DNA of 64,000 nt from Clostridiaceae bacterium. GTDB taxonomy: Bacteria; Bacillota; Clostridia; Lachnospirales; Lachnospiraceae. Below the pieces are notes generated by a model that was given only the letters and a program-made list of their open reading frames with translations, was not told where the DNA came from and ran no database searches. The position numbers and the translations under genes are program-made. Location: NCBI GenBank assembly GCA_910574345.1, contig CAJSZV010000004.1, forward strand, positions 62,001 to 126,000, written 5' to 3'. Shown in pieces: positions 3,555-63,243 of this stretch. Each line of letters begins with the position of its first letter. Positions within the stretch are counted from its first letter, which is position 1.

Positions 3555-6137
3555 ATGGGTTATTCAAAGGAACTTTTTGAACGGGCAGACGAAGACAGGC
3601 TGGATGCCGGCGGCAGTGAGCAGCAGAACAGTATGCGCAGTGTCCAGAATCTGGAGGCTGTTATTAATGAAGGTCTTCGTGCTGCTCTCCTGGAAGAGAC
3701 TCCGGACCAGTCTCTTAAAGTGCTGTTGGAGCATCTTGGAAAAGCGCTCCGCGGGGAACGGACTTACATATTTGAGCGCAATGAATCCGGAGGCGATGAC
3801 AACACCTATGAGTGGGTGGCCGAAGGCGTGGAGCCGGAGAAGGAGAGTCTTCAAAATGTTCCGTCTGAGGTGTGTGCGGTCTGGTATGGGAATTTCAGAG
3901 TCGGTAAACATATCGTCATTGAAGATCTGGAAGAAATCCGAGAGGATGACCCCCTGATGTATGGGACTCTGAAGCGACAGAACATCCATTCCCTTGTAGT
4001 GGTTCCCCTCTATGATAATAAAAAGCCTGTGGGTTTTTACGGTGTGGATAATCCGCCGGCAAAGTCTTTGGAATACGCCTCCAATATGCTTCAGACTGCG
4101 GCATATTTTATCGTATCTTCCTTAAGGCGGCGCAACCTGGTTCGTGAGCTTAAAAAGCGGAGCTATAACGTTCTTCATGCCCTCAGCGTAGATTATCTGG
4201 GCATCTATCAGGTGAATTTTGACACAGACCAGTATGAGATTTACCGGGACAGCAGGCGGATGAGTATGGATTGGGACGTCCGCTTTGAGGGCAGCTATGA
4301 GGCGGCTATGGAGCGGTATATTGACCGGCATGTAATTCCCAGAGATCAGGAACGGCTGCGCGTCATGACAAAAAAGGACTACGTGCTTTCCCAACTCAAG
4401 ATGAGGAAGAAGTTCTATATCCGGTATCAGATAAAAGATAATTCCTATGGATTAAAACACCTGGAGATCCATTTCTCCGTCACGGGGAAAGAAGATGAGA
4501 CAAACTGCGCGCTTTTAGCCCAACGGGATGTGAACGCCGTGGTGGAGCAGGAGAAGAAGTACAAGCTGGAGGCCAGACAGAGTCTGGAAGACATTCTGGA
4601 GGGAGCCAGAACAGGGATTTGGACCATAGAACTGGAAGAGGGCCGTGAGCCGAGGATGTACGCAGACCGGACCATGCGGATACTCCTGGGCGTGTCGGAT
4701 GAGATCGGGCCGGAAGAATGCTACCGCCACTGGTTTGCAAATATTGAACCGGATTATGTGAACATGGTGCAGGAATCGGTGCAGGAGATCCTGGAAGCCG
4801 GACGTTCCGAGGTGACCTATCCCTGGAACCATCCTGAACGCGGGAAAATCTATGTCCGCTGCGGCGGTGTTCCGGACAGACAATTCAAAAACACGGGGGT
4901 CTGCTTAAGCGGATACCATCAGGACATTACGGATACCATGATGACACGGAAGAAACAGGACCAGGCTATTATGGAGCTTCTGGAGAAGGTCAGGCGGGCA
5001 AACTCAGCCAAAAGCGAATTTCTTTCTCATATGTCCCACGATCTGCGCACGCCCATTAACGGTATTCTGGGAATGCTGGCTATTATGGAGAAAACCCAGG
5101 ACGACCGGAATCGGCAGAGAGAGTGCCGGGAGAAAATCCGCGTGTCGGCGGAGCATCTCCTGTCCTTAGTCAACGATGTTCTTCAGATCAGCAAGCTGGA
5201 AAGCGGAAGGCCGGTGGTGGTGGAAGAACCTTTTGACCTTCATGATATCTTGGAAACCTGCATGACTATCTTGTCGGTGCAGGCGGAGGAGGCAGGCATC
5301 CGCCTGGTATTGGAGGAGGTGGACCTGCAGCACAGCAGATTGAAAGGAAACCCTCTGCGTTTAAAGCAGATCTTAATGAATATCATGGACAATGCCGTCA
5401 AATATAACCGAATCCATGGTTCCGTATTTATTCAGGTAAAGGAGACCGCCTGTAAAAACGGAATCGCCAGCTACCGGTTTGTAATCGAAGACACGGGAAT
5501 CGGCATTGGGGAAGATTTCAAAAAGCATATTTTCGAACCTTTTGCTCAGGAACATCAAGATGCAAGAACCCATTATAACGGCGTTGGCCTCGGCATGTTT
5601 ATCGTGAAAAAACTGGTAGACGAGATGAAGGGAACCATTGAGGTGGACAGCCGGATGGGCAAAGGGAGCACGGTCCGGATTACTCTGCCCATTGGCGTTG
5701 ACGGGGCCTGGAGTACCCATCCTGTAGACGAAGAGCGGAATATCCAGGGCAGTATCACCGGAATGCATGTTCTTCTGGTGGAAGATAATGAGATTAACCG
5801 TGAGATTGTGGAGTTTATGCTGGCGCAGGCGGGAGTGAGGGTAGCCACTGCCAATGACGGAAAAGCCGCTGTGGATGTTTTTTCCTCATCCGCGCCGGGA
5901 ACCTTCGACTGTGTGCTCATGGATTTGATGATGCCGGTTATGAGCGGTTATGAGGCGGCCCGTGTGATTCGCGGCCTGAACCGGCCGGACGCAAAAACTG
6001 TGCCTATTATAGCGCTGTCGGCCAACGCATTTGAAGAGGATGTGGCCATGGCAAAGGACGCCGGCATGAATGATCATTTGGCAAAGCCTATTGATATGGG
6101 CAAAATGTTTACGGTTATGCGCCGGTTAAGGCACTAA
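3555..6137 (+). CDS. GAF-containing hybrid sensor histidine kinase with C-terminal receiver
   Basis: 860 residues with no membrane segments, so a cytosolic sensor. Order: a GAF-like sensory region (about 30-190), two PAS-like regions (about 200-330 and 335-450), a HisKA dimerisation helix with SHMSHDLRTPING and the phospho-acceptor His495, a HATPase domain (N box NAVKYN, G1 EDTGIGI, G2 GVGLGMFIVKK) and a receiver domain (about 740-860) with DLMMP acceptor Asp790. There is no HPt domain, so phosphate must pass to an unlinked HPt or stay intramolecular. A weak GGGAGGGCAGAGGGG ribosome site supports the start. It is flanked by a terminator and a convergent operon and appears monocistronic, with no partner regulator beside it. 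The signal sensed is unknown. Confidence 0.9.
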   Translation: MGYSKELFERADEDRLDAGGSEQQNSMRSVQNLEAVINEGLRAALLEETPDQSLKVLLEHLGKALRGERTYIFERNESGGDDNTYEWVAEGVEPEKESLQNVPSEVCAVWYGNFRVGKHIVIEDLEEIREDDPLMYGTLKRQNIHSLVVVPLYDNKKPVGFYGVDNPPAKSLEYASNMLQTAAYFIVSSLRRRNLVRELKKRSYNVLHALSVDYLGIYQVNFDTDQYEIYRDSRRMSMDWDVRFEGSYEAAMERYIDRHVIPRDQERLRVMTKKDYVLSQLKMRKKFYIRYQIKDNSYGLKHLEIHFSVTGKEDETNCALLAQRDVNAVVEQEKKYKLEARQSLEDILEGARTGIWTIELEEGREPRMYADRTMRILLGVSDEIGPEECYRHWFANIEPDYVNMVQESVQEILEAGRSEVTYPWNHPERGKIYVRCGGVPDRQFKNTGVCLSGYHQDITDTMMTRKKQDQAIMELLEKVRRANSAKSEFLSHMSHDLRTPINGILGMLAIMEKTQDDRNRQRECREKIRVSAEHLLSLVNDVLQISKLESGRPVVVEEPFDLHDILETCMTILSVQAEEAGIRLVLEEVDLQHSRLKGNPLRLKQILMNIMDNAVKYNRIHGSVFIQVKETACKNGIASYRFVIEDTGIGIGEDFKKHIFEPFAQEHQDARTHYNGVGLGMFIVKKLVDEMKGTIEVDSRMGKGSTVRITLPIGVDGAWSTHPVDEERNIQGSITGMHVLLVEDNEINREIVEFMLAQAGVRVATANDGKAAVDVFSSSAPGTFDCVLMDLMMPVMSGYEAARVIRGLNRPDAKTVPIIALSANAFEEDVAMAKDAGMNDHLAKPIDMGKMFTVMRRLRH

Positions 6138-25878: not shown

Positions 25879-25927
25879 AAAAGAAAACGGCAAAATGTGT
25901 TAAAGGCGCATTTTGCCGTTTCCTTTT
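25879..25927 (+). terminator. Rho-independent terminator of the liv operon
   Basis: AAAAGAAAACGGCAAAATG pairs with CATTTTGCCGTTTCCTTTT (one mismatch) around a loop of about 11 bases, with a T-rich right arm. Confidence 0.9.
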
Positions 25928-26096: not shown

Positions 26097-27596
26097 ATGA
26101 GAACAGTAAAGGAACAGGAAATTGCCGCCATGGCGCCCAATGCCAATGCGGCGGCCAATGCCAGAAAAATATCGTCAGGAGGCGGATTTGTATCCTTAAG
26201 ACGGTCTGAGGACGACACCTTTTACATGGGGGAGTGTAAGGGAAGCGGAAAGAACAATTACGTGGTATCTGCGGATTACATAGACGAAGAGCACCCGGTG
26301 TTTCGGTGCACCTGCCCCAGCAGGCAGTTTCCCTGCAAACACAGCCTGGCCCTGCTCTACGAGATGGCTGCCGGGAAAGAATTTGCCCTGACGAAAATCC
26401 CTCAGGATATTCTGGATAAACGTGAGAAGAAAGAGGCCAGGGAGGCAAAGAAACAGTCAGGAGAGAAGAAGCCCGCAACAGAGCGGAGCATAAAGGCGGC
26501 AAAGGCAGCCAGGACAAAGAAGATCAAAAAGCAGCTGGAAGGACTTGAGCTTTTAAGACAGCTGACAGAAAGCCTGATGAAAAGCGGACTGGCGTCTATG
26601 GGAAGCATGTCCTTAAAAACCTATCGGGATCTGGCCAAACAGCTGGGAGATTATTACCTTCCGGGCCCCTTGGTGTATCTGAACCGGCTGATTCTGGAGA
26701 TGGAGGCATGCCAGAAGGACCAGGATCCTAAGCATTATGAACAGGCAGTGGAGATCCTAAAGAAGCTTCGGGCTTTGGAGAAGAAGGCGAAGGCATATCT
26801 TCAGGACAAACTGGACAATGACAGCCCCGATGCCGATGATGACGAGCTGTATGAGGAGCTGGGAGGAATCTGGAAGCTGGAACAGCTAAACGGGCTGGGG
26901 CTTAAAAAGGAGCAGGCCCGCCTGGTGCAGCTGTCCTTTGGGGTGACCTTTGACGCTGCCAGAAAGGAATATATCGACAAGGGATACTGGGTAGATGTGG
27001 ATACAGGGCAGATTGTGCACACCTGCAATTACCGTCCGGTGAAAGCCCTCAAGTATGTGAAAGAGGAGGATTCCTGTTTTGGGCTTTTAAATATTCCCCT
27101 TCTGACCTACTATCCGGGCACGGCAGACAGGAGAGTGCGCTGGGAGTCCGCCTCCTATGAGGACATACCGAGGGCTGTCTATAAAGAGATTATGGAACAG
27201 GCCTACAAAGATCTTCCCGCTGCCATGAAGGCGGTGAAAAATGAGCTGAAGAATACATTGTCGCAGGAGTACTGCCCTGTCATGATATCCTATGAGGAGA
27301 TCGGCATGGTAAAGACCATGAAGGAGGACAGAAAGAAGGAGACCGAAACGTCTGAGGGGAAGGCAGGGGGAGACATGCTCTGCGCCTTAAGGGATCATAG
27401 CGGAAACAGTATAAAACTGCAGAGTCCGGAGGGTATGGACGACACGGTTTCTATCATACCTCTGCTTCCGGAACGGTCTCTTTATAAAGAAGGGGTACTG
27501 TTCGGGCTGGCATATTATGACCCTGCGGACCGGCAGATGGGGATTTATCCATGCAGCCTGATTACAGAGGACGGGATCCTCAGGCTGTTATATTAG
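26097..27596 (+). CDS. SWIM zinc-finger protein of the MoxR-VWA cluster
   Basis: 499 residues. The SWIM motif is Cys71-x-Cys73-x6-Cys80-x-His82 (CTCPSRQFPCKH), a small zinc domain used for DNA or protein binding. It is followed by a Lys/Ala/Glu-rich linker (about 110-150), a helical region with Asp/Glu-rich segment (about 240-260) and a C-terminal region without recognised motifs. Proteins of this kind occur beside MoxR and VWA genes in many bacteria; enterobacterial YehQ is a comparable SWIM protein. It starts the accessory cluster and is four bases from the next frame. The biochemical role is unknown; substrate recognition for the ATPase machine is one possibility. Confidence 0.8.
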   Translation: MRTVKEQEIAAMAPNANAAANARKISSGGGFVSLRRSEDDTFYMGECKGSGKNNYVVSADYIDEEHPVFRCTCPSRQFPCKHSLALLYEMAAGKEFALTKIPQDILDKREKKEAREAKKQSGEKKPATERSIKAAKAARTKKIKKQLEGLELLRQLTESLMKSGLASMGSMSLKTYRDLAKQLGDYYLPGPLVYLNRLILEMEACQKDQDPKHYEQAVEILKKLRALEKKAKAYLQDKLDNDSPDADDDELYEELGGIWKLEQLNGLGLKKEQARLVQLSFGVTFDAARKEYIDKGYWVDVDTGQIVHTCNYRPVKALKYVKEEDSCFGLLNIPLLTYYPGTADRRVRWESASYEDIPRAVYKEIMEQAYKDLPAAMKAVKNELKNTLSQEYCPVMISYEEIGMVKTMKEDRKKETETSEGKAGGDMLCALRDHSGNSIKLQSPEGMDDTVSIIPLLPERSLYKEGVLFGLAYYDPADRQMGIYPCSLITEDGILRLLY

Positions 27597-27617
27597 CGAA
27601 TGAGGAAGGAAAGCAAT

Positions 27618-28400
27618 ATGTCGGAAAAGAATGGGTTAAAGGCCGGGGTTAAAAGGAAAGCCATGGCGGCTGTGCTTCTGCTTATTTTTATGGGTGCCGC
27701 GGCTGTATTTGCTTTCAGCAAGGCCTTTGGCATGGGGGATCCGGTGAGCCGCAACAGCCGGGCGTTTTCTAAAGAGGTAAAGCAGTGGATATCCCAGGCT
27801 CAGGAAGGGGATACCGTTAGCTTGGCGGAACTTGCGCCGTTTTCATGGAACTGGGTGTATACCTTTGATCCGTATACTGCAAAAGCCGAGATGGAGAAGG
27901 TTCTTGGATGCTCAGGAAGGGAGCTGCAGGAGACCGTAAGTGAAGGCATGGTTCAGCTGATCTTTGTGGAGCATGACAGCGCTTTGGGGGAGAACAAAGT
28001 AGTCGGAAGTATCTGCGCATATGGGAGCAATCTGGGGTATGGCGTAGATCTGGGGATACGGTTTGGCAGAAGGAACAACTATGTGATGCTCCCTGAGGGA
28101 ATGGACCGCATGACTCTTAGAACAGAGGGGGAATATCCGCGGCTTGTGTTTGAAGGCGAGACCTTTGAGGGAGTGATCACCGAACTGTACAGACAGTCGG
28201 CTTTGGTATCCGTGGAAGAAGGGTGGCCTATCAGAGATTCGGGAGACCAGGTATTTGTGCAGCTTAATGAGGAACAAACAAAGACGGCTGCCATAGGCGA
28301 CCGGGTAAAAGTAAACTATGACGGCATGGTGATGGAAAGCTATCCTCTGCAGTTAGGCGGGCAGATGGATACGGTGATCTTAAAGGATCTGAAAGAGTGA
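27618..28400 (+). CDS. Membrane-anchored hypothetical protein with DUF3221-like tail
   Basis: 260 residues; start set at the ATG after GAGGAAGGAAAGC, not the ATG at 27600 that lies inside the ribosome site. One membrane segment (AVLLLIFMGAAAVFAFS, about 20-36) follows a Lys/Arg-rich start, so the rest is outside the cell. The last 40 residues (IGDRVKVNYDGMVMESYPLQ) resemble the DUF3221 beta-barrel found in Firmicute surface proteins. It lies between the SWIM and solenoid genes of the cluster with gaps of 21 and 18 bases, so co-transcription is likely. An intruding sequence cannot be excluded; the function is unknown. Confidence 0.65.
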   Translation: MSEKNGLKAGVKRKAMAAVLLLIFMGAAAVFAFSKAFGMGDPVSRNSRAFSKEVKQWISQAQEGDTVSLAELAPFSWNWVYTFDPYTAKAEMEKVLGCSGRELQETVSEGMVQLIFVEHDSALGENKVVGSICAYGSNLGYGVDLGIRFGRRNNYVMLPEGMDRMTLRTEGEYPRLVFEGETFEGVITELYRQSALVSVEEGWPIRDSGDQVFVQLNEEQTKTAAIGDRVKVNYDGMVMESYPLQLGGQMDTVILKDLKE

Positions 28401-28418
28401 GGATAGAAGGAGCAGATT

Positions 28419-30299
28419 ATGAATTTGAGTGTAGTATATGAACTGAGGGACCGGTTAAAGACAGCGGCAGTGGCGGGAACCGGTCTCATAGAGGAGGATT
28501 TCCGGCTTAAAAGGGCTGTGGAGCAGATGGCCCCCCTTGGGAAAGCTTCCCCGGTATTTGGAAGGATTTATCAGATGGCCCGGAAAATCACCCAGCCGGA
28601 CTGCGGCAGCAGGGAGGAGATGGTTTTGGATACCTTGTCTCTTCTGGATGCGGTTTTATGCACCCAGGGAAGCCTTTTAAAAGAGGGGGAGTGGGAAGAG
28701 ATTCCTGGAGGGGATACAAAGGATGGGCTCTGTGTCAACATTCCCTATAGACAGATGGCCCCGGTTCTGGAGGCCTTTAGGGGAACCGGAAGCGGCAGAT
28801 ATGCGGTGATTCGTGATGCCCATGAGGCACAGCCGGAGATCTTTAAGGATTTTAGAATCAAGAACCTTTGTGTAAAAGCCCTGGGGGACAGCTATGGGGA
28901 TCTGGCTGACATGGTGGCTCATTGGCTTCTTGATGAGGGAAGGGGGATCCTTCCTCTCTTAAAGCAGGGCTTTGATCCCGCAGGCAGACGGGACATGGCC
29001 AGACGGGTGGAGATCATAGACGCCATAGCAGGCGGGGATGAGAATGGGTTCTATGTGGAGATGTTTCCGAAGGCCTCAAAGGAAGTGAAAGAGCCTCTTG
29101 CCAGGGCTTTAAGGCACTGTGAAGCCAATGAAGACCTGCTTCTGGATCTGGTGAAATCAGAAAAGGGAAAAGTGAAGGAGGAGGCTCTTTGGTCTCTGGC
29201 TCGTATGAACGGGGAGAAGGCAAGGGAGTTCTGGAAAAAGCAGATGGGTAAAAAGCCGGAGAAGGCAGTGAACTATCTCCAGAATTCCAGGACCATGTGG
29301 GCTTCGGATCTGATTGCAGAGTATCTGATACAGTGGCTGGATACCTTCAAGGAGTCGGGACTTTCTCTAAAACAGTTAAAGGATGAGGACAGGCAGAGGA
29401 TCTACGATCTGTGGAGGGCCGCTTTAGGCAAGTCTTCCCCACAGATGTGCGCATGCTACAAGCGGGTGTACCAGGTACTGCCTAAGGAGACCGCAGAAAG
29501 ACTTTGGGAATCTCTTATGGAAGAACAGCCTGCCGGTCTGTGCCAGACGGCAGAGGAGCTGTATGATGCCTATGGAGACGAGTTCCTTCAGTCCGTATTC
29601 TGGATTGATCTGCTGACAAAGAGCGCAGGGGAGGTCTATGACAGATTCAGCCCTTATCTAAGGCCGGAGGAGCTTCTTGACGCCATAAAACAGATAGGCG
29701 GGAAAAAGAAAGATCCTATGGGAATCTATCAGGTCCTTATGCGTGTAAGCTATGAGGAGAAGGAAGGCTCTTATGTGGTATATCGGGAATCATGGGAGTC
29801 TCCCATTCGGTATCGGACTGTGGTCACCCGGCTGGAGGCAGGGCTGGATCCCCGGTGGTATCCCCTCCTGCTTAAGTCAAAGGACCGGTTTAACGCCCGG
29901 TTCCGCAAACAGGTGCGAAACAGCTTTGACAACAGCTATGACGCCATGGTTGCAGGACTTTTCAGACCGGATAAGGAAGGGCTTAAGGAAGCCTACGGGA
30001 ACTATTTCTATCTGGGAGCCAGGCACCGGGGGCCTGTGGCGGCAGACATACGGATGCTTAAAAAATGCGGCTGGAAGGATTATAAGGGACTCTTGGCTCT
30101 TATGGGAAAGAAGAATGACCACATTGCCACATATGGGATCCGGGAGCTTCTGTGTGAATTGCCTTTGGCCAGTGAGGAACTGGCAGGAGAACTGGAGAGC
30201 CTGATCAAGAGTTATGGGAAGAAAGCAAAGATCGGCGTTGGGGTTTTGGAGATGTGGTGCGAGAAGCTGAAAAGCGGGGTTTTGGCGAGAGATTTATAA
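28419..30299 (+). CDS. Alpha-solenoid (HEAT-like repeat) protein of the MoxR-VWA cluster
   Basis: 626 residues, almost entirely helical by composition. Helix-pair units such as KEVKEPLARALRHCEAN and EDLLLDLVKSEKGKVKEEAL then WSLARMNGEKAREFWKKQ (about 215-285) look like HEAT-type repeats. No catalytic motif or membrane segment is visible. Solenoid proteins of this kind accompany SWIM, MoxR and VWA genes in homologous loci and probably scaffold the complex. Start follows AGAAGGAG. The following gene in this cluster is separated by an AT-rich AAA-ATPase insertion, so the original neighbour was probably the MoxR gene. Function is inference. Confidence 0.7.
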   Translation: MNLSVVYELRDRLKTAAVAGTGLIEEDFRLKRAVEQMAPLGKASPVFGRIYQMARKITQPDCGSREEMVLDTLSLLDAVLCTQGSLLKEGEWEEIPGGDTKDGLCVNIPYRQMAPVLEAFRGTGSGRYAVIRDAHEAQPEIFKDFRIKNLCVKALGDSYGDLADMVAHWLLDEGRGILPLLKQGFDPAGRRDMARRVEIIDAIAGGDENGFYVEMFPKASKEVKEPLARALRHCEANEDLLLDLVKSEKGKVKEEALWSLARMNGEKAREFWKKQMGKKPEKAVNYLQNSRTMWASDLIAEYLIQWLDTFKESGLSLKQLKDEDRQRIYDLWRAALGKSSPQMCACYKRVYQVLPKETAERLWESLMEEQPAGLCQTAEELYDAYGDEFLQSVFWIDLLTKSAGEVYDRFSPYLRPEELLDAIKQIGGKKKDPMGIYQVLMRVSYEEKEGSYVVYRESWESPIRYRTVVTRLEAGLDPRWYPLLLKSKDRFNARFRKQVRNSFDNSYDAMVAGLFRPDKEGLKEAYGNYFYLGARHRGPVAADIRMLKKCGWKDYKGLLALMGKKNDHIATYGIRELLCELPLASEELAGELESLIKSYGKKAKIGVGVLEMWCEKLKSGVLARDL

Positions 30300-30326
30300 A
30301 TAGAAAGTGGGGAATGTATATATAGT

Positions 30327-32027
30327 ATGGGAAGATTTTTAAACAGTAAGGTTCCTTTTGAAATGTTTGTAGCCATGGCTTCGGACCCATATTTTGTAGA
30401 TAAATCCTGGCTTATATCAGAACTGATTCCCTCCCTTGGAAGAGAGAAAAGATTTTTCTGCATTACCAGACCGCGCCGTTTTGGAAAAAGCATTATGGCT
30501 AATATGGTTGGGGCTTTTTTCGGAAAGGCGACAGATGGACGCCAGGTTTTTGGCAATCTTAAAATTGCAGAACTAAAAAATTATCAGAACTATTTAAATC
30601 AATATAATGTAGTTTATATTGATTTTAGTGAGATGCCTGAAAAGTGTACATCATACGATGAATATATTACACGTTTTCTGAAAGGTTTAAGATCGGATTT
30701 GCAGCAGGCATATCAGGAAATACCGGTAGAATCAGAATTGGCGGTTTGGGATATTTTAACGGATATTTTCCAAAAGACAGGGGAGAAATTTGTTTTTGTC
30801 ATAGATGAATGGGATGCGATATTCCATATGCCATTTATTAATGTGGAACAGCAGAAAGAATTTTTGCTTTTTCTGAAATCTCTATTAAAGGGAAAAGTAT
30901 ACCTTGAGCTGGTCTATATGACAGGAGTACTCCCTATTACTTCTTGCCTCACTTCGTTCGGTACTCAGGAATCAGACGATTCCTTCGTTGGTGCATCGGG
31001 TGAAAGCCTGCCAGCAGTCTTTCCTGCGGATGCACCATACTCTAGTGGTTCCGAACTAAATATGTTTCTGGAATATGATATGTCTACCAAAAAGAAGTTC
31101 AGTGAATATTTTGGGTTTCTTGATGAGGAAGTTGACAGACTGTTTGAAATTTATCAGGCAGAATCTGATAATCCTGAAATATCCCGAGAGGATTTGCGTA
31201 TATGGTATGATGGTTATCATACTGCAAGCGGAAAAAGAATATACAATCCTCGTTCGATCGCCAGTGCATTAGGAGATAATGAGCTGGCAGATTATTGGAC
31301 CAGTTCAGGTCCATATGATGAAATTTTTTATTATATTAGAAATAATATGAATGATGTTCGGGAAGATATTGTTCTGATGGTGGCAGGAGAAGGCGTTAAG
31401 GCAGAAATTCAGAATTATGCAGCAGTATCTATGGGATTAAAAACGAAAGATGAGATTTATTCTGCCATGGTAGTATATGGTCTTTTGACCTATGAAAACG
31501 GAAAAGTTTTTATACCAAACAGGGAGATTATGAAACAGTTTCAAAAGCTTTTGATGTCCAAGGATTCTCTTGGATATGTTTATAACCTTGCCAGAGAATC
31601 CGAGAAAATGCTTGAGGCTACACTTTCAGAGGATACTCAGACTATGGTGGAAATCCTTAAATTCGCCCATGATACAGAAGCGCCGATTTTTTCTTATAAC
31701 AGTGAAATCGAGTTGTCTGCAATCGTAAATCTTGTCTATCTGGCGGCAAGAGACAGATATCGTATTGAGCGGGAAGATAAAGCAGGGGAAGGATATGTAG
31801 ATTTTATTTTTTATCCGGAAAGTCCGAATAGTGATGCCATTATTCTTGAATTGAAGATAGACAGCACACCCCAGAAGGCAATTAAGCAGATTAAGGATAA
31901 AAATTATGCACTCCGTTTCAGAGGGAAATTGGGTGAGAAACCCAAATATACAGGCCGTATTTTAGCTGTGGGTATCAGCTATAGCAGAAAAACAAAAAAG
32001 CATTCTTGTAAAATAGAACTGCTGTAA
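30327..32027 (+). CDS. AAA-ATPase-like/PD-(D/E)XK nuclease-like protein (PF09820/PF08011 type), with in-frame insert
   Basis: 566 residues. N-terminal ATPase: YFVDKSWLISELIP, Walker A-like TRPRRFGKSIM and Walker B FVFVIDEWDAIF. C-terminal PD-(D/E)XK-like core GYVDFIFYP...AIILELKID with IKQIKDKNYALRF. This family is abundant, often multi-copy, in gut Clostridia and Bacteroidetes; its role is not established and a mobile or toxin-like behaviour has been suggested by context. The gene is clearly richer in A+T than the flanking cluster genes, pointing to insertion. Residues about 205-237, between MTGVLPI and YSSGSELNMF, are foreign to the family and correspond to a palindromic insert that keeps the frame. 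Confidence 0.85.
   Translation: MGRFLNSKVPFEMFVAMASDPYFVDKSWLISELIPSLGREKRFFCITRPRRFGKSIMANMVGAFFGKATDGRQVFGNLKIAELKNYQNYLNQYNVVYIDFSEMPEKCTSYDEYITRFLKGLRSDLQQAYQEIPVESELAVWDILTDIFQKTGEKFVFVIDEWDAIFHMPFINVEQQKEFLLFLKSLLKGKVYLELVYMTGVLPITSCLTSFGTQESDDSFVGASGESLPAVFPADAPYSSGSELNMFLEYDMSTKKKFSEYFGFLDEEVDRLFEIYQAESDNPEISREDLRIWYDGYHTASGKRIYNPRSIASALGDNELADYWTSSGPYDEIFYYIRNNMNDVREDIVLMVAGEGVKAEIQNYAAVSMGLKTKDEIYSAMVVYGLLTYENGKVFIPNREIMKQFQKLLMSKDSLGYVYNLARESEKMLEATLSEDTQTMVEILKFAHDTEAPIFSYNSEIELSAIVNLVYLAARDRYRIEREDKAGEGYVDFIFYPESPNSDAIILELKIDSTPQKAIKQIKDKNYALRFRGKLGEKPKYTGRILAVGISYSRKTKKHSCKIELL
30938..31038. repeat. Palindromic element inserted in frame in the AAA-ATPase gene
   Basis: Family members run directly from MTG(V/I)LPI to about two residues and then YSSGSELNMF; here about 33 residues intervene. 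The extra DNA forms two hairpins: GGAATC-AGAC-GATTCC (30968-30983) and GGTGCATC...GATGCACC (30990-31036, stem extended by GAAAG with CTTTC). It has no stop in the reading frame. It looks like a small palindromic mobile element comparable in behaviour to Rickettsia palindromic elements. Boundaries are approximate. Confidence 0.6.
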
Positions 32028-32054
32028 AAAAGAATTATAAATATGGAGGAAGCT

Positions 32055-33143
32055 ATGAGTAATAACAATGTTCAGAGGCTGCCGGCGGAGCAGCTGTTTC
32101 AGAAAGAAATCGACACCTTGATTGCCAATGAGAAATATTCGGTGCCCACAGGCTGGCGCATGTCGCCCAGGTCCGTCCTGACTTACATCTGCGGCGGCAG
32201 CTGCGGCGGGATGGAGATTACACCCAAATACATCGGCCATGAACGGCTGGTGGAGATCGCCATCTCCACCCTGGTGACGGACCGGGCCCTTCTTCTTATC
32301 GGGGAGCCGGGTACGGCAAAATCCTGGCTGTCAGAGCATCTGACGGCGGCCATCAACGGCAATTCCACAAGAGTGATCCAGGGGACGGCAGGAACTACGG
32401 AGGAGCAGATCAAGTACTCCTGGAATTATGCCATGCTTATCGCAAGCGGGCCATCTAAGGAGGCCATGATCCCCAGCCCTGTATACAGAGCCATGGAGGA
32501 AGGCGCCATCGCCAGGGTGGAGGAGATCTCCAGGTGTGCCTCGGAGGTTCAGGATGCGTTGATCTCCATCTTGTCGGAGAAGCGGATCTCCGTGCCGGAG
32601 CTTGGCATTGAGGTACCTGCCAGAAAGGGATTTTCCGTGATTGCCACGGCCAACACCAGAGATAAGGGTGTCAATGAAATGTCGGCGGCTCTAAAGCGGC
32701 GGTTTAATATCGTGGTCCTGCCTTCTCCCGAAAGCCTGGAGGCGGAGATGGAGATCGTGAAGACGAGAATTGCCCAGCTGTCAGAGAGCCTGGATCTTTC
32801 CGCCAAGCTTCCCGAAGGAGAGGTGGTGGAGAAAGTATGCACCATTTTCCGGGAACTGAGGGCAGGGGCTACCTTAGACGGGAAGCAGAAGCTAAAGACT
32901 ACCACAGGGGTCTTGTCCACGGCGGAGGCCATCTCTTTACTGGCCAACAGCATGGCTCTGGCCGGGAGCTTCGGAAACGGGGATATCACCGATTATGATC
33001 TGGCGGCAGGCCTTCAGGGAGCTGTGGTGAAAGAGGACGAGAAGGATCAAAAGGTGTGGGAAGAGTACTTAGAGAACATTATGAAGAAGAGGGGATCCAG
33101 ATGGCTTTCCCTCTATAAAGAGTGCAAGGAGTTAAACCGCTGA
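32055..33143 (+). CDS. MoxR-type AAA+ ATPase (YehL-like)
   Basis: 362 residues; start set at the ATG after GGAGGAAGC (the earlier ATG at 32043 precedes the ribosome site). Walker A GEPGTAKS (residues 83-90), a GAIARVEEISRC Walker B region, sensor 1 VIATANTRDKGVNEMS and arginine-finger region LKRRFNIVVLPSP mark a MoxR-family AAA+ ATPase. MoxR proteins act as chaperones that remodel partners, often with VWA proteins carrying a metal-ion-dependent adhesion site. Length and neighbours resemble E. coli YehL. Its stop overlaps the start of the DUF5682-type gene (TGATG), showing coupled translation. Probably a hexamer that drives the VWA and DUF5682 partners (inference). Confidence 0.88.
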   Translation: MSNNNVQRLPAEQLFQKEIDTLIANEKYSVPTGWRMSPRSVLTYICGGSCGGMEITPKYIGHERLVEIAISTLVTDRALLLIGEPGTAKSWLSEHLTAAINGNSTRVIQGTAGTTEEQIKYSWNYAMLIASGPSKEAMIPSPVYRAMEEGAIARVEEISRCASEVQDALISILSEKRISVPELGIEVPARKGFSVIATANTRDKGVNEMSAALKRRFNIVVLPSPESLEAEMEIVKTRIAQLSESLDLSAKLPEGEVVEKVCTIFRELRAGATLDGKQKLKTTTGVLSTAEAISLLANSMALAGSFGNGDITDYDLAAGLQGAVVKEDEKDQKVWEEYLENIMKKRGSRWLSLYKECKELNR

Positions 33144-35467
33144 TGGAAAGACACCCTTTTGTATTTGGAATCCGCCATCTGTCCCCTGCCGGCGCTTACT
33201 ATGTCCGGGACTTTTTAGACCGGGCGGACCCGGAGCTGGTTCTTATCGAGGGGCCTGCAGATTTCACGGATTTAATAGAAGACCTGGGGGCAGAGGAGGT
33301 GAAGCCCCCTGTGGCGGTTATGGCGTACACCAAGGAACTTCCCATAAGAACCATCCTCTATCCTTTTGCAGAATATTCCCCGGAATATCAGGCCCTTTTG
33401 TGGGCAAAGGAGCATGGGCGCAGGTGTCGGTTCTGCGATCTGCCATCTCAGGTGTTTCTTGGGATGCGGGCTGCAAAAGAAGCAAAGGAAGGGGCTCTGC
33501 CAGCGCAGGAAGGCCAACAGGCTGCCGAAAGAGAAGCAGACCAGAGCCAGGGAGGCAGTCGGACAGAAGAATTTGACGTATACCGTGCTCTGGACAGTCA
33601 GTGTCAGGACAAGGATCACGAGACCTTCTGGGAACGGACCATGGAGCAGGCCGGGGACGCTGCCGGCTATGAGGCGGGGGCCAGGGAATTTGGACGCTCC
33701 CTAAGGCAGATGGAACAGAGAGGCGCCAGGGACTACGCTGAGAATCTGGTCCGTGAGGCTTATATGAGAAGGCAGATAGAGGACGCTGTAAAAGAGGGGA
33801 CAACACCCGAAAAAATCGCGGTGATCACAGGAGCCTATCACATAGAAGGGATTCTAGGCAGTGATCTGCCTATGACAGACAAGGAAGAAAAGGCTCTTCC
33901 CCGCCTGGAGTCCATGAAAACTCTGATGCCCTATTCCTACTATAGGCTTTCGGAGCATTCCGGCTACGGGGCAGGCAACCGGGCGCCGGCTTACTATGAA
34001 TATCTGTGGAAGGGGCTTTTGAGGAAGGAACCTGACTACGGAGCCAGACGGTATCTGACAGGCCTGGCATCCTTTCAGAGAAATCATGGAGGGCTGGTGT
34101 CTTCTGCCGAGGTGCTGGAAGCGGCAAGGCTGTCTCAGGCACTGGCAGAGCTTCATGACGGCCGGATTCCGGCCTTAAGAGATCTTCGGGATGCAGCCGT
34201 CACCTGTATGGGCCATGGGTCATTTTCAGAACTGGCACTGGCGGCTGCCGACACGGAGATCGGCACCAGGATAGGGAGTCTTCCCGGTGGCGTGAGCCAG
34301 ACCTCCATTCAGAGCGACTTCTATGAGAAGTTAAAGGACCTGAAGCTGGAAAAATACAAGTCCGTGACAGCGGCAGAGCTTTCCTTGGACCTGCGGGAAA
34401 ACTTAAGGGTGAAGACGAAAAAATCGGCGTTTCTTGATCTGGAGCGGTCCTTTTTTCTCCACAGGCTGAGAGTGCTGGGGATTCAGTTTGCCTCCATCCA
34501 GTCCGTGCGCCAGGACAATGCCACCTGGGCGGAACAGTGGAGCTTAAGATGGACGCCGGAGGCGGAGATCCAGATCGTGGAAGCCGTGCTAAAGGGAGAT
34601 ACCGTGGAGCAGGCCGCTGCCTTTGAGCTTAAGAACAAGCTGGAGGAAAACCAGAGCATTGCCCGGATCGCTGAGATTGTGGAGCAAGCCTTTTACTGCG
34701 GCATGCCGGTTATGGTATCTGCGGCTTTGGAGCATCTCCAGGCCATGGCAGTGGACGGGGCAGGAGTGACGGAGCTCGCAGATACGGCGGGAAGCCTGTC
34801 CGTGGTGATTCAGTACGGGGATATCCGAAGGCTTGACAGAAGGCCTCTGATTCCCATACTGTCCCAGTTATTTCTGCGGGCTTGTCTGATTTTGCCCCAG
34901 GAGTGTGCCTGTGACGATGGGGCGGCAGGGCCCTTAGCCTCGGCTGTAAGCCGGCTTCAGACCGTCAGTGTGGCCCATGATTTTCTGGACAGGGAGCGAT
35001 TTCTTGATGTGCTTGGGCAGATTGCGGCCAGGGACGATTTAAATACCCGTCTTTCCGGCCTGGCAGCCTCCATCCTTTTGGAGCAGGGAGTGATGGACAG
35101 TGAAGAGCTGGGGCGGGAGGTGGAGCGGCGTCTTTCCAGGGGAATCCCGGCGGAGCTTGGAGCCGGATGGTTTGCGGGACTGTCCTCCAGGAACCACTAT
35201 GCCCTTATTGCCAGGCTTACCTTGTGGGAAAAATTAAGCGGGTATCTGGACGAGCTGGACCAGGAGGAGTTTAAGCGGGCTTTGTTGTTTCTGCGTCGGG
35301 CTTTTGCGGATTTTTCTTCCATGGAGAAGAATCAGATCGCCGAAAATCTGGGAGAGATCTGGCAGGTGAACCCGGAACAGGTTAGCGAGGTCCTTGGCGG
35401 GACCCTGACAGAAGATGCCATGGAGATGCTGGAGGGATTGGAGGACTTTGATTTTGGAGATATCTGA
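33143..35467 (+). CDS. DUF5682-type protein of the MoxR-VWA cluster (YehM-like)
   Basis: 774 residues; the ATG at 33143 follows CAAGGAG and overlaps the MoxR stop by one base. The N-terminus FGIRHLSPAGAYYVRDFLD and PELVLIEGPADF is characteristic, with IAVITGAYHIEGIL (about 230-245) and a long helical remainder. The arrangement recalls ChaN/TraB-like haem or peptidase folds (ExP-H motifs: IEGPAD and GAYHIEG), but this is only a pattern resemblance. No membrane segment is present. A low-complexity Gln/Glu/Ala-rich stretch lies at about 115-145. Always seen with MoxR and VWA partners in related loci. Activity unknown. Confidence 0.78.
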   Translation: MERHPFVFGIRHLSPAGAYYVRDFLDRADPELVLIEGPADFTDLIEDLGAEEVKPPVAVMAYTKELPIRTILYPFAEYSPEYQALLWAKEHGRRCRFCDLPSQVFLGMRAAKEAKEGALPAQEGQQAAEREADQSQGGSRTEEFDVYRALDSQCQDKDHETFWERTMEQAGDAAGYEAGAREFGRSLRQMEQRGARDYAENLVREAYMRRQIEDAVKEGTTPEKIAVITGAYHIEGILGSDLPMTDKEEKALPRLESMKTLMPYSYYRLSEHSGYGAGNRAPAYYEYLWKGLLRKEPDYGARRYLTGLASFQRNHGGLVSSAEVLEAARLSQALAELHDGRIPALRDLRDAAVTCMGHGSFSELALAAADTEIGTRIGSLPGGVSQTSIQSDFYEKLKDLKLEKYKSVTAAELSLDLRENLRVKTKKSAFLDLERSFFLHRLRVLGIQFASIQSVRQDNATWAEQWSLRWTPEAEIQIVEAVLKGDTVEQAAAFELKNKLEENQSIARIAEIVEQAFYCGMPVMVSAALEHLQAMAVDGAGVTELADTAGSLSVVIQYGDIRRLDRRPLIPILSQLFLRACLILPQECACDDGAAGPLASAVSRLQTVSVAHDFLDRERFLDVLGQIAARDDLNTRLSGLAASILLEQGVMDSEELGREVERRLSRGIPAELGAGWFAGLSSRNHYALIARLTLWEKLSGYLDELDQEEFKRALLFLRRAFADFSSMEKNQIAENLGEIWQVNPEQVSEVLGGTLTEDAMEMLEGLEDFDFGDI

Positions 35468-36644
35468 GGATAAGCTAAAGGAGCGCATGACAAGATGGCG
35501 TCTCATTCTGGGACAGGAAAGTGAAGAAGGGTTTGACAAGATGAACGGGGGAGAGGATCTGGGACTTACGGAGGAACAGTGGCTCATGGACCAGGCCCTG
35601 GCATGCATCTACAACAGTACTTCCCAGGGAGGCTTCGGACCGGGAGGAAGAGGGGCGGGCCACGGGCCCTCCAATCCCCGGATTACCAGATGGCTTGGAG
35701 ACGTGAGAACCCTCTTTGACAAGGACTTAGTAAAGATCGTCCAGGCGGACGCCATGGAGCGGTGCGGATTAAAGCAGCTGATTTTTGAACCGGAGCTTTT
35801 GGAGAACTTAGAGCCGGATATGAATCTGGCCACCACCATCCTGCTTTTAAAAGACCAGGTGCCGGGGAGGAGCAAGGAGAGCGTCCGGGAATTTATGAAA
35901 AAGATTGTGGAGGAGATCAACAAGCTTTTGGAGAGCGATATTAAGAGGGCGGTGACGGCGGCGGTGAATAAACGGCAGCATTCCCCCATTCCCTCGGCAT
36001 CGGCTCTGGATTTCCCCACCACCATAAGAAGAGGAATCAAAAACTACAGGCCGGAGCTGAAAAAGATCATTCCGGAGCACTATTATTTCTTTGACCGCAC
36101 CTCCACCACGGCGGCCAACAAGTATACCATCATCCTGGATGTGGACCAGAGCGGCTCCATGGGGGAATCGGTGATCTACTCCTCCATTATCAGCTGTATT
36201 CTGGCAAGTATGGCGTCTGTGAAGACCAGGATCGTGGCCTTCGACACCCAGGTGGTGGATCTGACGGAGAAATGTGACGATCCTGTGGATCTGCTGTTCG
36301 GATTTCAGCTGGGCGGCGGCACGGATATCGACAAATCCGTGGCATACTGCAGCCGTTTTGTGGAGAATCCGAAAAAGACCTTGTTCTTTTTAGTCAGCGA
36401 TCTCTGTGAAGGAGGAAACCGGGCGGCTCTTGTAAGAAGACTTTCAGAGCTTAAGGAAAGCGGGGTTACGGTGGTGTGCCTGCTTGCCATAGCTGATGGG
36501 GGTAAGCCTTATTATGACGCCCAGATGGCGGAGAAGATAGCCCGTATGGGGATTCCCTGCTTTGCATGTAATCCCCAGAAGCTGCCGGAGCTTTTGGAGA
36601 GGGCCCTAAAGGGGCAGGAGCTTTTGGAGCTGGCTAAGGAGTGA
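35454..36644 (+). CDS. VWA (CoxE-like) domain protein of the MoxR-VWA cluster (YehP-like)
   Basis: About 396 residues. The start is uncertain: TTG at 35454 gives an N-terminus reading LEISEDKLKERMTRWRLILG and follows GGAGGG/GGAGG; TTG 35448 or ATG 35487 are alternatives, the latter with a ribosome site too close. It overlaps the preceding gene by 14 bases. The VWA domain (about 220-390) has the full MIDAS: DQSGS (231-235), GGTDID and VSDLCEGG. VWA proteins bind divalent metal and act with MoxR ATPases in protein-complex assembly. The N-terminal half is helical. Last gene of the cluster. Convergent with the RloB-like gene 54 bases away. Confidence 0.82.
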   Translation: MEISEDKLKERMTRWRLILGQESEEGFDKMNGGEDLGLTEEQWLMDQALACIYNSTSQGGFGPGGRGAGHGPSNPRITRWLGDVRTLFDKDLVKIVQADAMERCGLKQLIFEPELLENLEPDMNLATTILLLKDQVPGRSKESVREFMKKIVEEINKLLESDIKRAVTAAVNKRQHSPIPSASALDFPTTIRRGIKNYRPELKKIIPEHYYFFDRTSTTAANKYTIILDVDQSGSMGESVIYSSIISCILASMASVKTRIVAFDTQVVDLTEKCDDPVDLLFGFQLGGGTDIDKSVAYCSRFVENPKKTLFFLVSDLCEGGNRAALVRRLSELKESGVTVVCLLAIADGGKPYYDAQMAEKIARMGIPCFACNPQKLPELLERALKGQELLELAKE

Positions 36645-36697: not shown

Positions 36698-37447
36698 TCA
36701 TGGCTGAATCTCCAATATCTTTTCCAGCAATAAGTAGACCGTAGTAGCAAAGTATGCCGGATACCGTGCTTCTCTATCAACATGGAGCTCTTTTGCCTGT
36801 TTTACAGCGAGTTTGATTTTAGCAGCATCATAATGCTCCGGAGAAATATGCTTCTTATCTTTTAAGGGAGCCCCAAGTGCACGAAGTCTGTCCCGAAAAT
36901 GCGAGGTAGGCACATAGAGATTATGATCGGTAACGGCAAAACTTTGATCTTCTTCGGTCGGAGCATCATGGTGCAGAAGGAGCCATATTTCAAAAAAAGG
37001 ATTACTGATGGCATAGCCATAACCTTTTTCGTCACATTGCTCCAAGGCCTTGTTCCACTCATCAATCCATGCAGAGCTCAGATGATCGTCCACATCGATT
37101 ATGATCCAAAACTCGTCTTCTGGATACTGTGAAAATTGGTAGATCTGTTCCTTTTGTTCTTTGAACTGCTCAATTCGTTCAACCAGCTGCAAAGGACGGC
37201 TTTTACTGAGCATAACGGATTGCTCCTGAGTTCTGTACCTGTGATGAGTATGGATGGCATCCTCCGCAACAGAGATAAACTGAATTTTACTTCTCATTGC
37301 ATGAAAGATTTGGGATACCCTTTCAAAGTATTCTTCTTCTGTAACACTGCCCTCACAGGAAAGAAAAATAATCTTACTTGAGGCGGGCCTTTCAGGACGA
37401 TAAGGATTCTGGGGTGAGAAGGGAGTACGGCTGGTAATGAGAGGCAT
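36698..37447 (-). CDS. rloB: RloB-like (AbiLii/TOPRIM-type) defence protein
   Basis: 249 residues; start ATG at 37447 overlaps the stop of the upstream ATPase gene by one base (TGATG). RloB-family motifs: FLSCEGSVTEEEYFERV near the N-terminus, IIIDVDDH (central acidic pair) and YAISNPFFEIWLLLHHD. The fold is TOPRIM-like, expected to cut or otherwise process nucleic acid. Paired RloA/RloB-type genes were first noted in restriction loci of Campylobacter, and the lactococcal AbiL phage-abortive system has the same two-protein composition. Here it probably forms a two-gene anti-phage unit with the ATPase. Lower GC than the core genes to the right. Confidence 0.82.
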   Translation of the reverse strand: MPLITSRTPFSPQNPYRPERPASSKIIFLSCEGSVTEEEYFERVSQIFHAMRSKIQFISVAEDAIHTHHRYRTQEQSVMLSKSRPLQLVERIEQFKEQKEQIYQFSQYPEDEFWIIIDVDDHLSSAWIDEWNKALEQCDEKGYGYAISNPFFEIWLLLHHDAPTEEDQSFAVTDHNLYVPTSHFRDRLRALGAPLKDKKHISPEHYDAAKIKLAVKQAKELHVDREARYPAYFATTVYLLLEKILEIQP

Positions 37448-38781
37448 CAATCATTCCCCCTTATCATGGGAATGGCGCCGAACCTGCCGTTCAGATAGGC
37501 CCTAAGGGCATCCTGCCCTTTCTGAATATGAAAGTCAGAAAGGGGTCTTAGTTGTGATTCACCCAAATCATTCTTTTCGACAAACCAGATTTCATCCTGT
37601 CCGAATTTGTCAAGATCAATGAGATTAACGTCATGGGCAGTAAAGACAATCTGATTAAATGTATCATGGCAGTTGGAAGCAAACTCGTTTAACAAGTATT
37701 GAGAAAGCTTTGTGTGAAGACTCCTGTCAATTTCATCAATAAAAAATATGGTTTGGCTGTTTTCCTTCATCACAAACAAAATAGGCAGTAAATCCAGAAG
37801 ACGCTGCGTTCCGTCTGACTCATCTTCCATGTTAAAAGAGATGGTTTTTTCATTTAAGTGATGTTCAAATTTGATCTGAATCATTACTGTATGGCTTATC
37901 TCATTTTCAGCAAAAATAAAGTATTTTCCGTTTAAGCTTACAATACCGCTTTTGATTTCTTCAATTTCTTCCACAATTTCCGCAGGAAGATCAATTTTGT
38001 CTGCATATTCGTGAAAATCAATTTCATCGCTGACAACCGTGAGATTAAACACGCCGGTGTCCATTTTCCTCAAGCTTTCAGCAAGAAAGGTTTTAAAATC
38101 ATGATCCTGCTGCAGTCGCAGGGGAAGTCCTTTTACCGTACTGTCAGGAAAGATTATTTGTATGTTCTGGAACCATTTTATGATAAGTTCTGCCTTTGCC
38201 ACGCCATTGTCGTATAATTTATATAAAAACAGCTGGTTTTTCTGGTTTTCTCCAATGCTGTCCTTTAAGGTTTCGGCCAAACGGCGTTCCTTTGAATTTT
38301 TCCGGGCCAATCTTGACTCAATATCAATCTGGGTTTTTCCGTTCTCATCCGTAGTACGTGTGAAAAGAGGTGCCATGTCATCCTGTGTCAGAATCATAAG
38401 CCATTCTTCGTGGACCTGACGCCTGCTCAAAGAAAAGCCGTATTCATATACCTCCCCATCCAGATAGAACATGAACTGAAAGACAGAAGTATGACTTAAA
38501 TCTTCAAAATAGCCTTTGAACTGATTGATACCGGTTCCTTTTCCGCTTTTTTGGCCGTTGACAATAAAGCTCTTTGCGAAGGCAAGGGATTTAATAAAAG
38601 AGGACTTACCGGAAGCATTGGGGCCGAAGAAGCCTCCTCTTTGCAGGACCTTCCAGTCACCTGCCCTGGTGGTCAGTGTTTTAAAGAAACCCTGGTCTTT
38701 ATGGGATGCCGCAGGAAGCATACTGAATTCAATGGGATGACCAATGGATTTAAAATTGCTGACAATATATTTTAAAAGCAC
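37447..38781 (-). CDS. rloA: RloA/AbiLi-like AAA ATPase of the defence pair
   Basis: 444 residues. The GTG at 38781 is chosen because TTTAGGAGGG precedes it by the right distance; an ATG 36 bases upstream lies before the ribosome site. N-terminus LLKYIVSNFKSIGHPIEFSM and Walker A FGPNASGKSS (52-61) are typical of SMC/OLD-like AAA_15/AAA_21 ATPases; ESDGTQRLLDLLPIL is the ABC-like signature and IFFIDEIDRSLHTKLSQ the Walker B. Family members act with RloB/AbiLii nucleases in phage defence, where the ATPase is thought to sense infection. First gene of the pair, with its own promoter just upstream. Confidence 0.87.
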   Translation of the reverse strand: MLLKYIVSNFKSIGHPIEFSMLPAASHKDQGFFKTLTTRAGDWKVLQRGGFFGPNASGKSSFIKSLAFAKSFIVNGQKSGKGTGINQFKGYFEDLSHTSVFQFMFYLDGEVYEYGFSLSRRQVHEEWLMILTQDDMAPLFTRTTDENGKTQIDIESRLARKNSKERRLAETLKDSIGENQKNQLFLYKLYDNGVAKAELIIKWFQNIQIIFPDSTVKGLPLRLQQDHDFKTFLAESLRKMDTGVFNLTVVSDEIDFHEYADKIDLPAEIVEEIEEIKSGIVSLNGKYFIFAENEISHTVMIQIKFEHHLNEKTISFNMEDESDGTQRLLDLLPILFVMKENSQTIFFIDEIDRSLHTKLSQYLLNEFASNCHDTFNQIVFTAHDVNLIDLDKFGQDEIWFVEKNDLGESQLRPLSDFHIQKGQDALRAYLNGRFGAIPMIRGND

Positions 38782-38815
38782 GATTTCCCTCCTAAACTGA
38801 AAAACGGTTTTTTTC

Positions 38816-38844
38816 ATTATATTTCAAATAACCGGAACATACAA
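38816..38844 (-). promoter_or_regulatory. Predicted sigma-A promoter of the RloA/RloB pair
   Basis: On the minus strand TTGTAT (38839-38844) and TATAAT (38816-38821) are spaced by 17 bases, giving a leader of about 28 bases before the GTG start. Confidence 0.65.
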
Positions 38845-61217: not shown

Positions 61218-61245
61218 AATAATATACCTCCTAGTGAAAAAGTGG

Positions 61246-61271
61246 GGGAGAAGGCGCTAATGCCTTCTCCC
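61246..61271 (-). terminator. Hairpin between xis and int
   Basis: GGGAGAAGGC pairs perfectly with GCCTTCTCCC across six bases; on the minus strand it is followed by CCACTTTTTC. It may attenuate transcription from xis into int. Confidence 0.65.
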
Positions 61272-61285
61272 TGATTGAATTGTTT

Positions 61286-61489
61286 CTATTCGCAATTACC
61301 ACTTACCTGTAAATCGCACCATTTGTCAAATGCGACTCTATCGGCATATACACGTTTTCCCCATCTGATTTCGCAACCGGACGCCCTAATAAGTTTGAAA
61401 GCGTTATTCCTTCCTACACTTGCATATATTTGAAAATCAGATATACTTAGCAGTCTTTTTTGATTCAGTGGTATTGTTCTATTTTCCAT
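61286..61489 (-). CDS. xis: Excisionase (Tn916 Xis type)
   Basis: 67 residues. The sequence LLSISDFQIYASVGRNNAF and KRVYADRVAFDKW match the winged-helix excisionase of Tn916-like elements, which bends the element ends so that Int removes it from the chromosome. Ribosome site AAGGAGGG. Lies 68 bases upstream of int on the same strand. Confidence 0.9.
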   Translation of the reverse strand: MENRTIPLNQKRLLSISDFQIYASVGRNNAFKLIRASGCEIRWGKRVYADRVAFDKWCDLQVSGNCE

Positions 61490-61523
61490 AAATATCCCTC
61501 CTTAAATCTATAGCTTCCATAGT

Positions 61524-63122: not shown

Positions 63123-63184
63123 AAAGTAGCTCCTTTCATTTAAGATACTAATAGGATACCATACTTTTGAAGGGAGGGCTTCTT

Positions 63185-63199
63185 GTTGCAATTTGCAAC
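63185..63199. promoter_or_regulatory. Palindrome GTTGCAATTTGCAAC upstream of the helicase gene
   Basis: Seven-base arms around one central base, 63-77 bases upstream of the helicase start. It is a possible operator or replication-initiator site of the element. No partner regulator is seen in the window. Confidence 0.4.
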
Positions 63200-63202
63200 A
63201 AA

Positions 63203-63233
63203 AAACCATTGATGAACATTTCACCAATGGTTT
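63203..63233 (-). terminator. Terminator after the unknown element gene
   Basis: Minus strand AAACCATTG pairs with CAATGGTTT, followed by TTT, ten bases after the stop of the gene at 63244. Confidence 0.7.
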
Positions 63234-63243
63234 AAGAGATGAT

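Follow-up and report, generated by a model that had tools for sequence, protein, structure and literature searches.

A clostridial MoxR-VWA gene set related to Escherichia coli yehLMPQ, with a predicted TIKI/TraB-like domain in its DUF5682 protein

Introduction

Which of the closely packed genes at one clostridial locus form a conserved unit, and what might their products do together? The locus occupies positions 26097-36644 of the window, by which we mean the whole stretch of 64,000 nucleotides analysed here (positions 62001-126000 of contig C4 in a 5.6 Mb genome), and the open reading frames and their Pfam matches define seven genes there, all on the + strand. A preliminary description had named six of them as one cluster; all six frames are real, lie on the + strand and match the families named, but a seventh gene, encoding an AAA-ATPase_like/PDDEXK_9 protein, was omitted, and only five genes are conserved. 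These five encode a SWIM zinc-finger protein, a solenoid of HEAT-like helical repeats, a MoxR AAA+ ATPase, a DUF5682 protein and a VWA protein with a metal-ion-dependent adhesion site (MIDAS). Sequence comparison relates the locus to E. coli yehLMPQ, and this system is now better defined than before, by its five core parts, its two forms and a hidden domain of predicted TIKI/TraB-like fold.

Five genes form the conserved unit

One genome per species was scanned with the MoxR protein, and the best 80 of at least 565 confirmed candidate loci were tallied for gene content by BLASTP of the window proteins, within the available flanks. DUF5682 is present in 80/80 of these MoxR-found loci and all five core genes in 66/80, and for 12 of the 14 incomplete loci the missing gene would fall past the end of the contig. 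One of the two loci that are not plainly cut in this way (L054) has 1250 bases ahead of the solenoid without a SWIM match; L072 carries SWIM immediately ahead of MoxR, close to a contig end, and its solenoid was not matched. The usual order is SWIM-solenoid-MoxR-DUF5682-VWA and the exceptions are few: the VWA gene (4694-5902) lies upstream of SWIM in L079, with the remaining order kept, the solenoid precedes SWIM in L055 and L064, and several loci have additional solenoid copies. Chance comes nowhere near explaining a gene order shared by tens of genomes, and the co-occurrence that the preliminary description had proposed to check by profile searches and neighbourhood analysis is borne out, for a conserved unit of five genes; a six-gene cluster is wrong as the unit. 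Among the matches listed with named records, the closest MoxR proteins (97% and 95%) belong to genomes from metagenomes that bear the label Hungatella.

The five genes diverge in parallel, with correlations of 0.76-0.95 across 57 sets, a pattern that common descent by itself would also produce. Mean pairwise identity descends from 0.81 for MoxR through 0.73 for VWA, 0.61 for DUF5682 and 0.53 for SWIM to 0.34 for the solenoid, and these unequal rates fit a constant motor combined with variable target recognition. The ATPase, MIDAS and zinc motifs, already read as intact in the window, are also intact across the aligned relatives except at single positions. The Walker motifs of MoxR are conserved, GTAKS of its GEPGTAKS motif recurring in 79/79 aligned sequences, the motif positions of the VWA MIDAS (DxDxSGSM) are kept in 71/71, and the CxC..CxH of the SWIM finger is kept in 68/68. 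The linkage of the genes, together with two kinds of gene fusion described below, makes it very probable that the five genes encode one multi-protein machine, as had been suggested from the window.

A TIKI/TraB-like domain in DUF5682

Pfam describes DUF5682 as of unknown function. A pair of GxxH motifs together with a conserved Glu defines the TIKI/TraB (EreA/ChaN-like) superfamily. In a profile alignment the N-terminal domain of DUF5682 matches TraB with a probability of 96% and a score of 71, whereas 100 shuffles reach 21 at most. When the domain model is compared by structure, its top 11 matches all belong to the TIKI/TraB superfamily. The features that align with TraB include the fold, both GxxH motifs, Glu43, Asp106 and an R-E-x-Y helix. 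His19, Glu43, Asp106, Glu212, Gly237 and His240 are identical in 98/98 DUF5682 sequences and Gly16 in 93/98, these being counts of sequences and not of independent events, as the clostridial part of the set (76 sequences, the window's included, beside 22 others) is redundant. Residues are numbered from the GTG at 33122 that opens the frame; the likely start is the ATG at 33143, within the TGATG that joins MoxR to DUF5682, an overlap correctly noted before.

Two results are weaker, a Foldseek E of only 0.077 for the fold match and a weak profile match between the domain and a GumN-type set. Set against the rest of the evidence, they leave it highly probable that the N-terminal domain has a TIKI/TraB-like (EreA/ChaN-like) fold, and its membership of the superfamily is what is new here. 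This domain supports the suggestion that DUF5682 is the likely active part of the set. We lean slightly towards DUF5682 being a hydrolase; metal dependence is probable, and a protease would be the most likely kind. Unlike other members of the superfamily, the domain carries a helical-repeat arm and is linked with a MoxR-VWA pair.

Relation to yehLMPQ and two forms of the set

The likeness to the E. coli genes, pointed out in the preliminary description, extends to four products: MoxR is 40% identical to YehL, DUF5682 26% to YehM and VWA 32% to YehP, and the SWIM protein corresponds to YehQ. The two loci differ in arrangement, since SWIM is last in E. coli and first in the window and the DUF4132 protein YehI is found nearby in E. 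coli where the window has the solenoid, and the two SWIM proteins share little outside the finger. No DUF4132 Pfam match occurs among the window genes, which have the HEAT-like solenoid instead; hhalign finds only weak similarity between this solenoid and DUF4132 (E 0.046).

According to passages of PMC3893208, seven MoxR subfamilies have been named, YehL among them, and E. coli K-12 has two MoxR proteins, of which YehL is one; these passages assign it no function. A search of the open-licence literature found, among the papers listed, no function for YehL or the yehLMPQ locus. Excerpts of other papers report that yehP was 1.8-fold lower in simulated microgravity (PMC3589462) and that a yehQ deletion strain was made in a butanol-tolerance study (PMC6442406), one passage of which describes nine further mutated genes without distinct influence and does not name yehQ. 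A further paper, PMC8940909, was rejected as a false match to the name of a medium.

The set is unevenly distributed. DUF5682 occurs in 11/26 genomes of the genus (the window's own included), in 0/11 from other genera of the family and in 2/24 from the rest of the order; in a phylum sample it is above cut-off in 7/348 genomes, again with the own genome included, and below cut-off in three more. It is also found in 36/72,556 plasmid records, some of them chromosome-sized. The yehLMPQ stretch is present in 5301/5426 E. coli genomes, 5162 of them at a coverage of at least 80%, and 5320/5322 of its places are chromosomal. The patchiness in Clostridia and the near-ubiquity in E. coli indicate that the set is accessory in the former and nearly core in the latter. 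As a side observation, the E. coli plasmid p11B, a conjugative IncF plasmid of 181 kb, carries the yehI-mlrA stretch including yehLMPQ (L121, 1-19470), with an IS26 transposase gene upstream.

Loci found through DUF5682 itself (26 in number: 10 in genomes of Bacillota, 15 on plasmid records out of those 36, and one on a phage-labelled scaffold) were compared by profiles of their own. MoxR is matched in 25/26 and SWIM in 23/26, VWA occurs in 26/26 (in L119 as three pieces, in L118 and L140 as part of a fusion), and 22/26 have a large protein of the solenoid, DUF5691 or DUF4132 kind, to which record annotation adds two Streptomyces loci. The profile misses are confined to L106, L111 and L122, which are short records or records ending at the gene set. 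Some profiles were built partly from loci later matched, namely DUF5691 from L114-L116 and L119, DUF4132 from L094, L117 and L138, and the second SWIM profile from L094, L117, L118, L138 and L140; in these loci the gene was first known from record annotation, partly with Pfam.

Two forms emerge. Form I, SWIM - solenoid or DUF5691 - MoxR - DUF5682 - VWA, is found in Clostridia, Fusobacterium, Rhizobium, Methylosinus, Methylobacterium, Deinococcus, Hymenobacter, Nocardia and Nonomuraea. Form II, in which DUF4132 stands in for the solenoid at no fixed place and SWIM, wherever it was seen, comes last, is found in E. coli, Agrobacterium vitis, Sinorhizobium, three Bacillota of one family and Streptomyces; in one further genome (G055, L111) DUF4132 is present and SWIM was not seen. 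A single Bacillota family (f54) has both forms, form I in L104 (G278) and a set with DUF4132 and with SWIM last in L107-L109 (G165, G126 and G394). The slot shared by the solenoid and DUF5691 is a matter of position, as no homology between the window solenoid and DUF5691 was detectable by hhalign (probability 0.6 and at most 0.1). The fusions join DUF5682 to VWA in Streptomyces (L118, L140) and SWIM to DUF5691 in Hymenobacter (L116); in a sister Hymenobacter record (L139) the SWIM-DUF5691 region is split and other frames are broken too, so that sequencing may account for the split.

Passenger genes and surroundings

The two remaining genes of the run were considered as parts of the system and rejected (Table 1). 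The gene for the DUF3221-like membrane protein occurs in 1/80 MoxR-found loci (L015) and in 4/41 related genomes, all four DUF5682-positive and two of them with a reported internal stop; a close relative with all five core genes, L113, lacks it. The idea that this protein links the set to the membrane has accordingly been dropped. The AAA-ATPase_like/PDDEXK_9 gene has a guanine-plus-cytosine (GC) content of 0.40 against 0.52-0.55 in the surrounding windows, and it has matches on six contigs of its own genome and in 15/41 related genomes, the family being multi-copy in the genus. It stands at the same solenoid-MoxR junction in G016 and G022 (L014) and is absent from that junction in L015 and L113. 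Two-domain genes of the AAA plus PD-(D/E)XK kind, belonging to different families, are recurrent insertions within this gene set: an AAA_35/PDDEXK_3 gene lies between SWIM and the solenoid in L053 (4399-5967), and in L060 (5575-7164) one separates two copies of the solenoid.

Table 1. Features of the locus and its immediate surroundings, in window coordinates
Feature	Positions	Strand	Remarks
Terminator-like stem	25885..25921	+	Between upstream ABC-transporter genes and the set; pattern scan only
SWIM zinc-finger protein	26097..27596	+	Core; 499 amino acids; Pfam SWIM above cut-off; first in the set in most relatives
Membrane-anchored DUF3221-like protein	27600..28400	+	Passenger; 266 amino acids; DUF3221 at 23.2 bits, below the cut-off of 26.4
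HEAT-like helical-repeat solenoid	28419..30299	+	Core; 626 amino acids; HEAT_2 weak, below cut-off; conserved place
AAA-ATPase_like + PDDEXK_9 gene	30327..32027	+	Passenger between solenoid and MoxR; 566 amino acids; Pfam; low GC
MoxR AAA+ ATPase, YehL-like	32043..33143	+	Core; 366 amino acids; AAA_5/MoxR, E 3.2e-40
DUF5682 protein	33143..35467	+	Core; Pfam DUF5682, E 1.5e-153
N-terminal TIKI/TraB (EreA/ChaN-like) domain of DUF5682, predicted	33149..34036	+	Profile match, domain model, structure matches, invariant residues
C-terminal helical-repeat region of DUF5682	34454..35449	+	About residues 445-776; whole-protein model, helical-repeat matches
VWA_CoxE protein with MIDAS	35487..36644	+	Core; 385 amino acids; VWA_CoxE, E 2.8e-41
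RloB + RloA-like pair (AbiL-like)	36698..38817	-	Pfam RloB, AAA_21; PADLOC AbiLii, AbiLi; convergent neighbour outside the system

With the VWA start taken at the ATG at 35487, the gap after DUF5682 is 19 bases, not the 14 given earlier. The terminator pattern scan ran near the chance rate overall, with 14 found against 10.5 expected. By names read from the frames, the seven genes are flanked by an ABC-transporter set on one side and by plsX-rnc-smc-ftsY on the other. Elsewhere in the window, positions 60054-63951 are low in GC and encode a D5-like primase-helicase (DUF5906, D5_N) as well as a tyrosine integrase; this stretch is the margin of an integrated element that borders on phosphofructokinase.

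Proposed mechanism and its alternatives

The five gene products may act in the cytoplasm as a single machine of YehL type. Its MoxR ring would consume ATP, and the metal site of the VWA protein would serve to connect this ring with a substrate or partner. Targets would be recognised by the SWIM zinc-finger protein and by the solenoid, which evolves fast; once MoxR-VWA had opened or delivered them, they would be acted on by DUF5682, in this proposal an enzyme on a helical-repeat arm. The whole would likely serve quality control or the processing of proteins in connection with stress. For the five-gene set we infer that a complex forms, that metal is bound and that hydrolysis takes place, and likewise the substrate and the physiological role. 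Taken as a whole, the proposal that a MoxR-VWA motor works a TraB-like hydrolase, DUF5682, aimed by SWIM and the solenoid, stands in our estimation at an even balance between right and wrong; this grading, like those given to the machine, the fold and the hydrolysis, is a judgement.

The strongest alternative is a chaperone for cofactor loading, in which a client enzyme would receive its metal or haem from MoxR-VWA, DUF5682 being a ChaN-like carrier of metal or haem and not a hydrolase. NorQ-NorD and related activators, as far as excerpts describe them, have the same pair of MoxR and VWA; the window set differs from them in its extra SWIM, solenoid and TraB-like parts and in having no recurrent client enzyme beside it. 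The nearest genes upstream (61) and downstream (60) of the 66 complete loci, where present, number 121 and fall into 89 sequence clusters, so that the set sits at many genomic places and no client enzyme is linked to it. The residues H19, E43, D106, E212, G237 and H240, constant throughout the DUF5682 sequences and aligning with TraB, also speak against a mere carrier, and SWIM and the solenoid are, to our knowledge, not usual parts of MoxR-VWA cofactor-loading pairs. We therefore consider cofactor loading possible but rather unlikely.

A defence role had been favoured at first, on the ground that the window copy adjoins an RloAB pair: SWIM or the solenoid would sense an invader, MoxR-VWA would act as a switch, and DUF5682 would kill or cleave. 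The patchy presence in the genus and in the phylum sample and the fast evolution of the solenoid fit such a system, and so does the existence of MoxR-vWA ternary conflict systems, which, in the parts of Kaur et al. 2020 (PMC7159879) that describe them, share with the window a MoxR and vWA core with a third conserved part. The bpMoxR model of these conflict systems also accepts the window MoxR, at 32.3 bits against a cut-off of 27. This general likeness stands, but the third part of the window set is DUF5682, and Pfam searches of the seven window genes at E up to 1 gave no VMAP, iSTAND or other described third part, though the coverage of these parts by Pfam is unverified; in the window copy nothing is fused after the vWA domain, VWA_CoxE spanning residues 151-368 of 385 with no Pfam match beyond. 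The words SWIM, TraB and yeh are absent from the available text of PMC7159879.

Further evidence runs against defence. RloAB adjoins the set in 1/80 MoxR-found loci (L015) within the available flanks, the five core genes gave nothing above 15.3 bits against the PADLOC 2023 models at E up to 0.01 (best E 0.0026), no variable effector was seen, and the 5162 E. coli genomes cited above make the set near-universal in that species. On the 121 neighbours, PADLOC at E up to 1e-15 matched PDC-M37B and DolB (6 members), mad3 (3), JetD (1) and AbiLii (1), and Pfam found six Clp-type AAA_2 proteins; from the equal counts and one member, we read the PDC-M37B/DolB matches as Clp-like proteins and mad3 as ABC transporters. 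With these set aside, about 2/121 neighbours are defence-like (one JetD, one AbiLii), a figure that has no random-neighbour baseline. A defence setting for the set is not supported, and defence, which we now regard as quite improbable, was rejected as the leading reading. Beside these results, the PHROGs families phrog_30700 and phrog_31592 match DUF5682 (E 1.5e-27) and VWA (E 2e-59), and scans of viral contigs found no relative.

In six loci (L051, L053, L060, L064, L077 and L081) the same-strand gene after VWA belongs to one cluster of long proteins, read as Clp-type ATPases. This downstream position is a weak hint toward proteostasis.

Genome upkeep, in which SWIM and WGR/DUF4132 proteins would bind nucleic acid, MoxR-VWA would unfold stuck proteins and DUF5682 would degrade them, is improbable: the presence of SWIM in 66/80 MoxR-found (complete) and 23/26 DUF5682-found loci, a WGR domain within the A. 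vitis DUF4132 protein and the Deinococcus response described below agree with it, but LexA-type boxes occur in at most 1/69 upstream regions, the D. radiodurans genes have not been placed in any DUF5682 locus, and the SWIM protein is only presumably, from general knowledge, a nucleic-acid binder. Neither LexA nor CIRCE nor CtsR sites recur upstream of the set. As a passage of PMC8533742 reports, drA0165-drA0166 (a DUF4132 operon) and dr2173 (WGR) are strongly up in DdrO-depleted Deinococcus radiodurans, and MolR is mentioned there as described in the LexA regulon.

Partly because of that response, a bolder form of the MoxR-VWA hydrolase proposal can be put forward as a long shot. The set would then be an AAA+ protease of a new kind, common throughout E. 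coli and so far overlooked, in which a MoxR ring and a VWA clutch feed a TIKI/TraB-type metalloprotease and not a chamber of the Clp or Lon type; aimed by a nucleic-acid-binding SWIM protein (in other forms WGR/DUF4132), it would clear or remodel proteins stuck on nucleic acid. The SPRTN-p97 pathway is a non-bacterial parallel, of which such a machine would be the counterpart.

Conclusion

The five-part definition of the set, and the placing of DUF5682 in a superfamily with active-site-like residues, turn the orphan yeh locus into a testable system. If the proposal is true, a hydrolase driven by MoxR and VWA would widen the known roles of the MoxR chaperone class.

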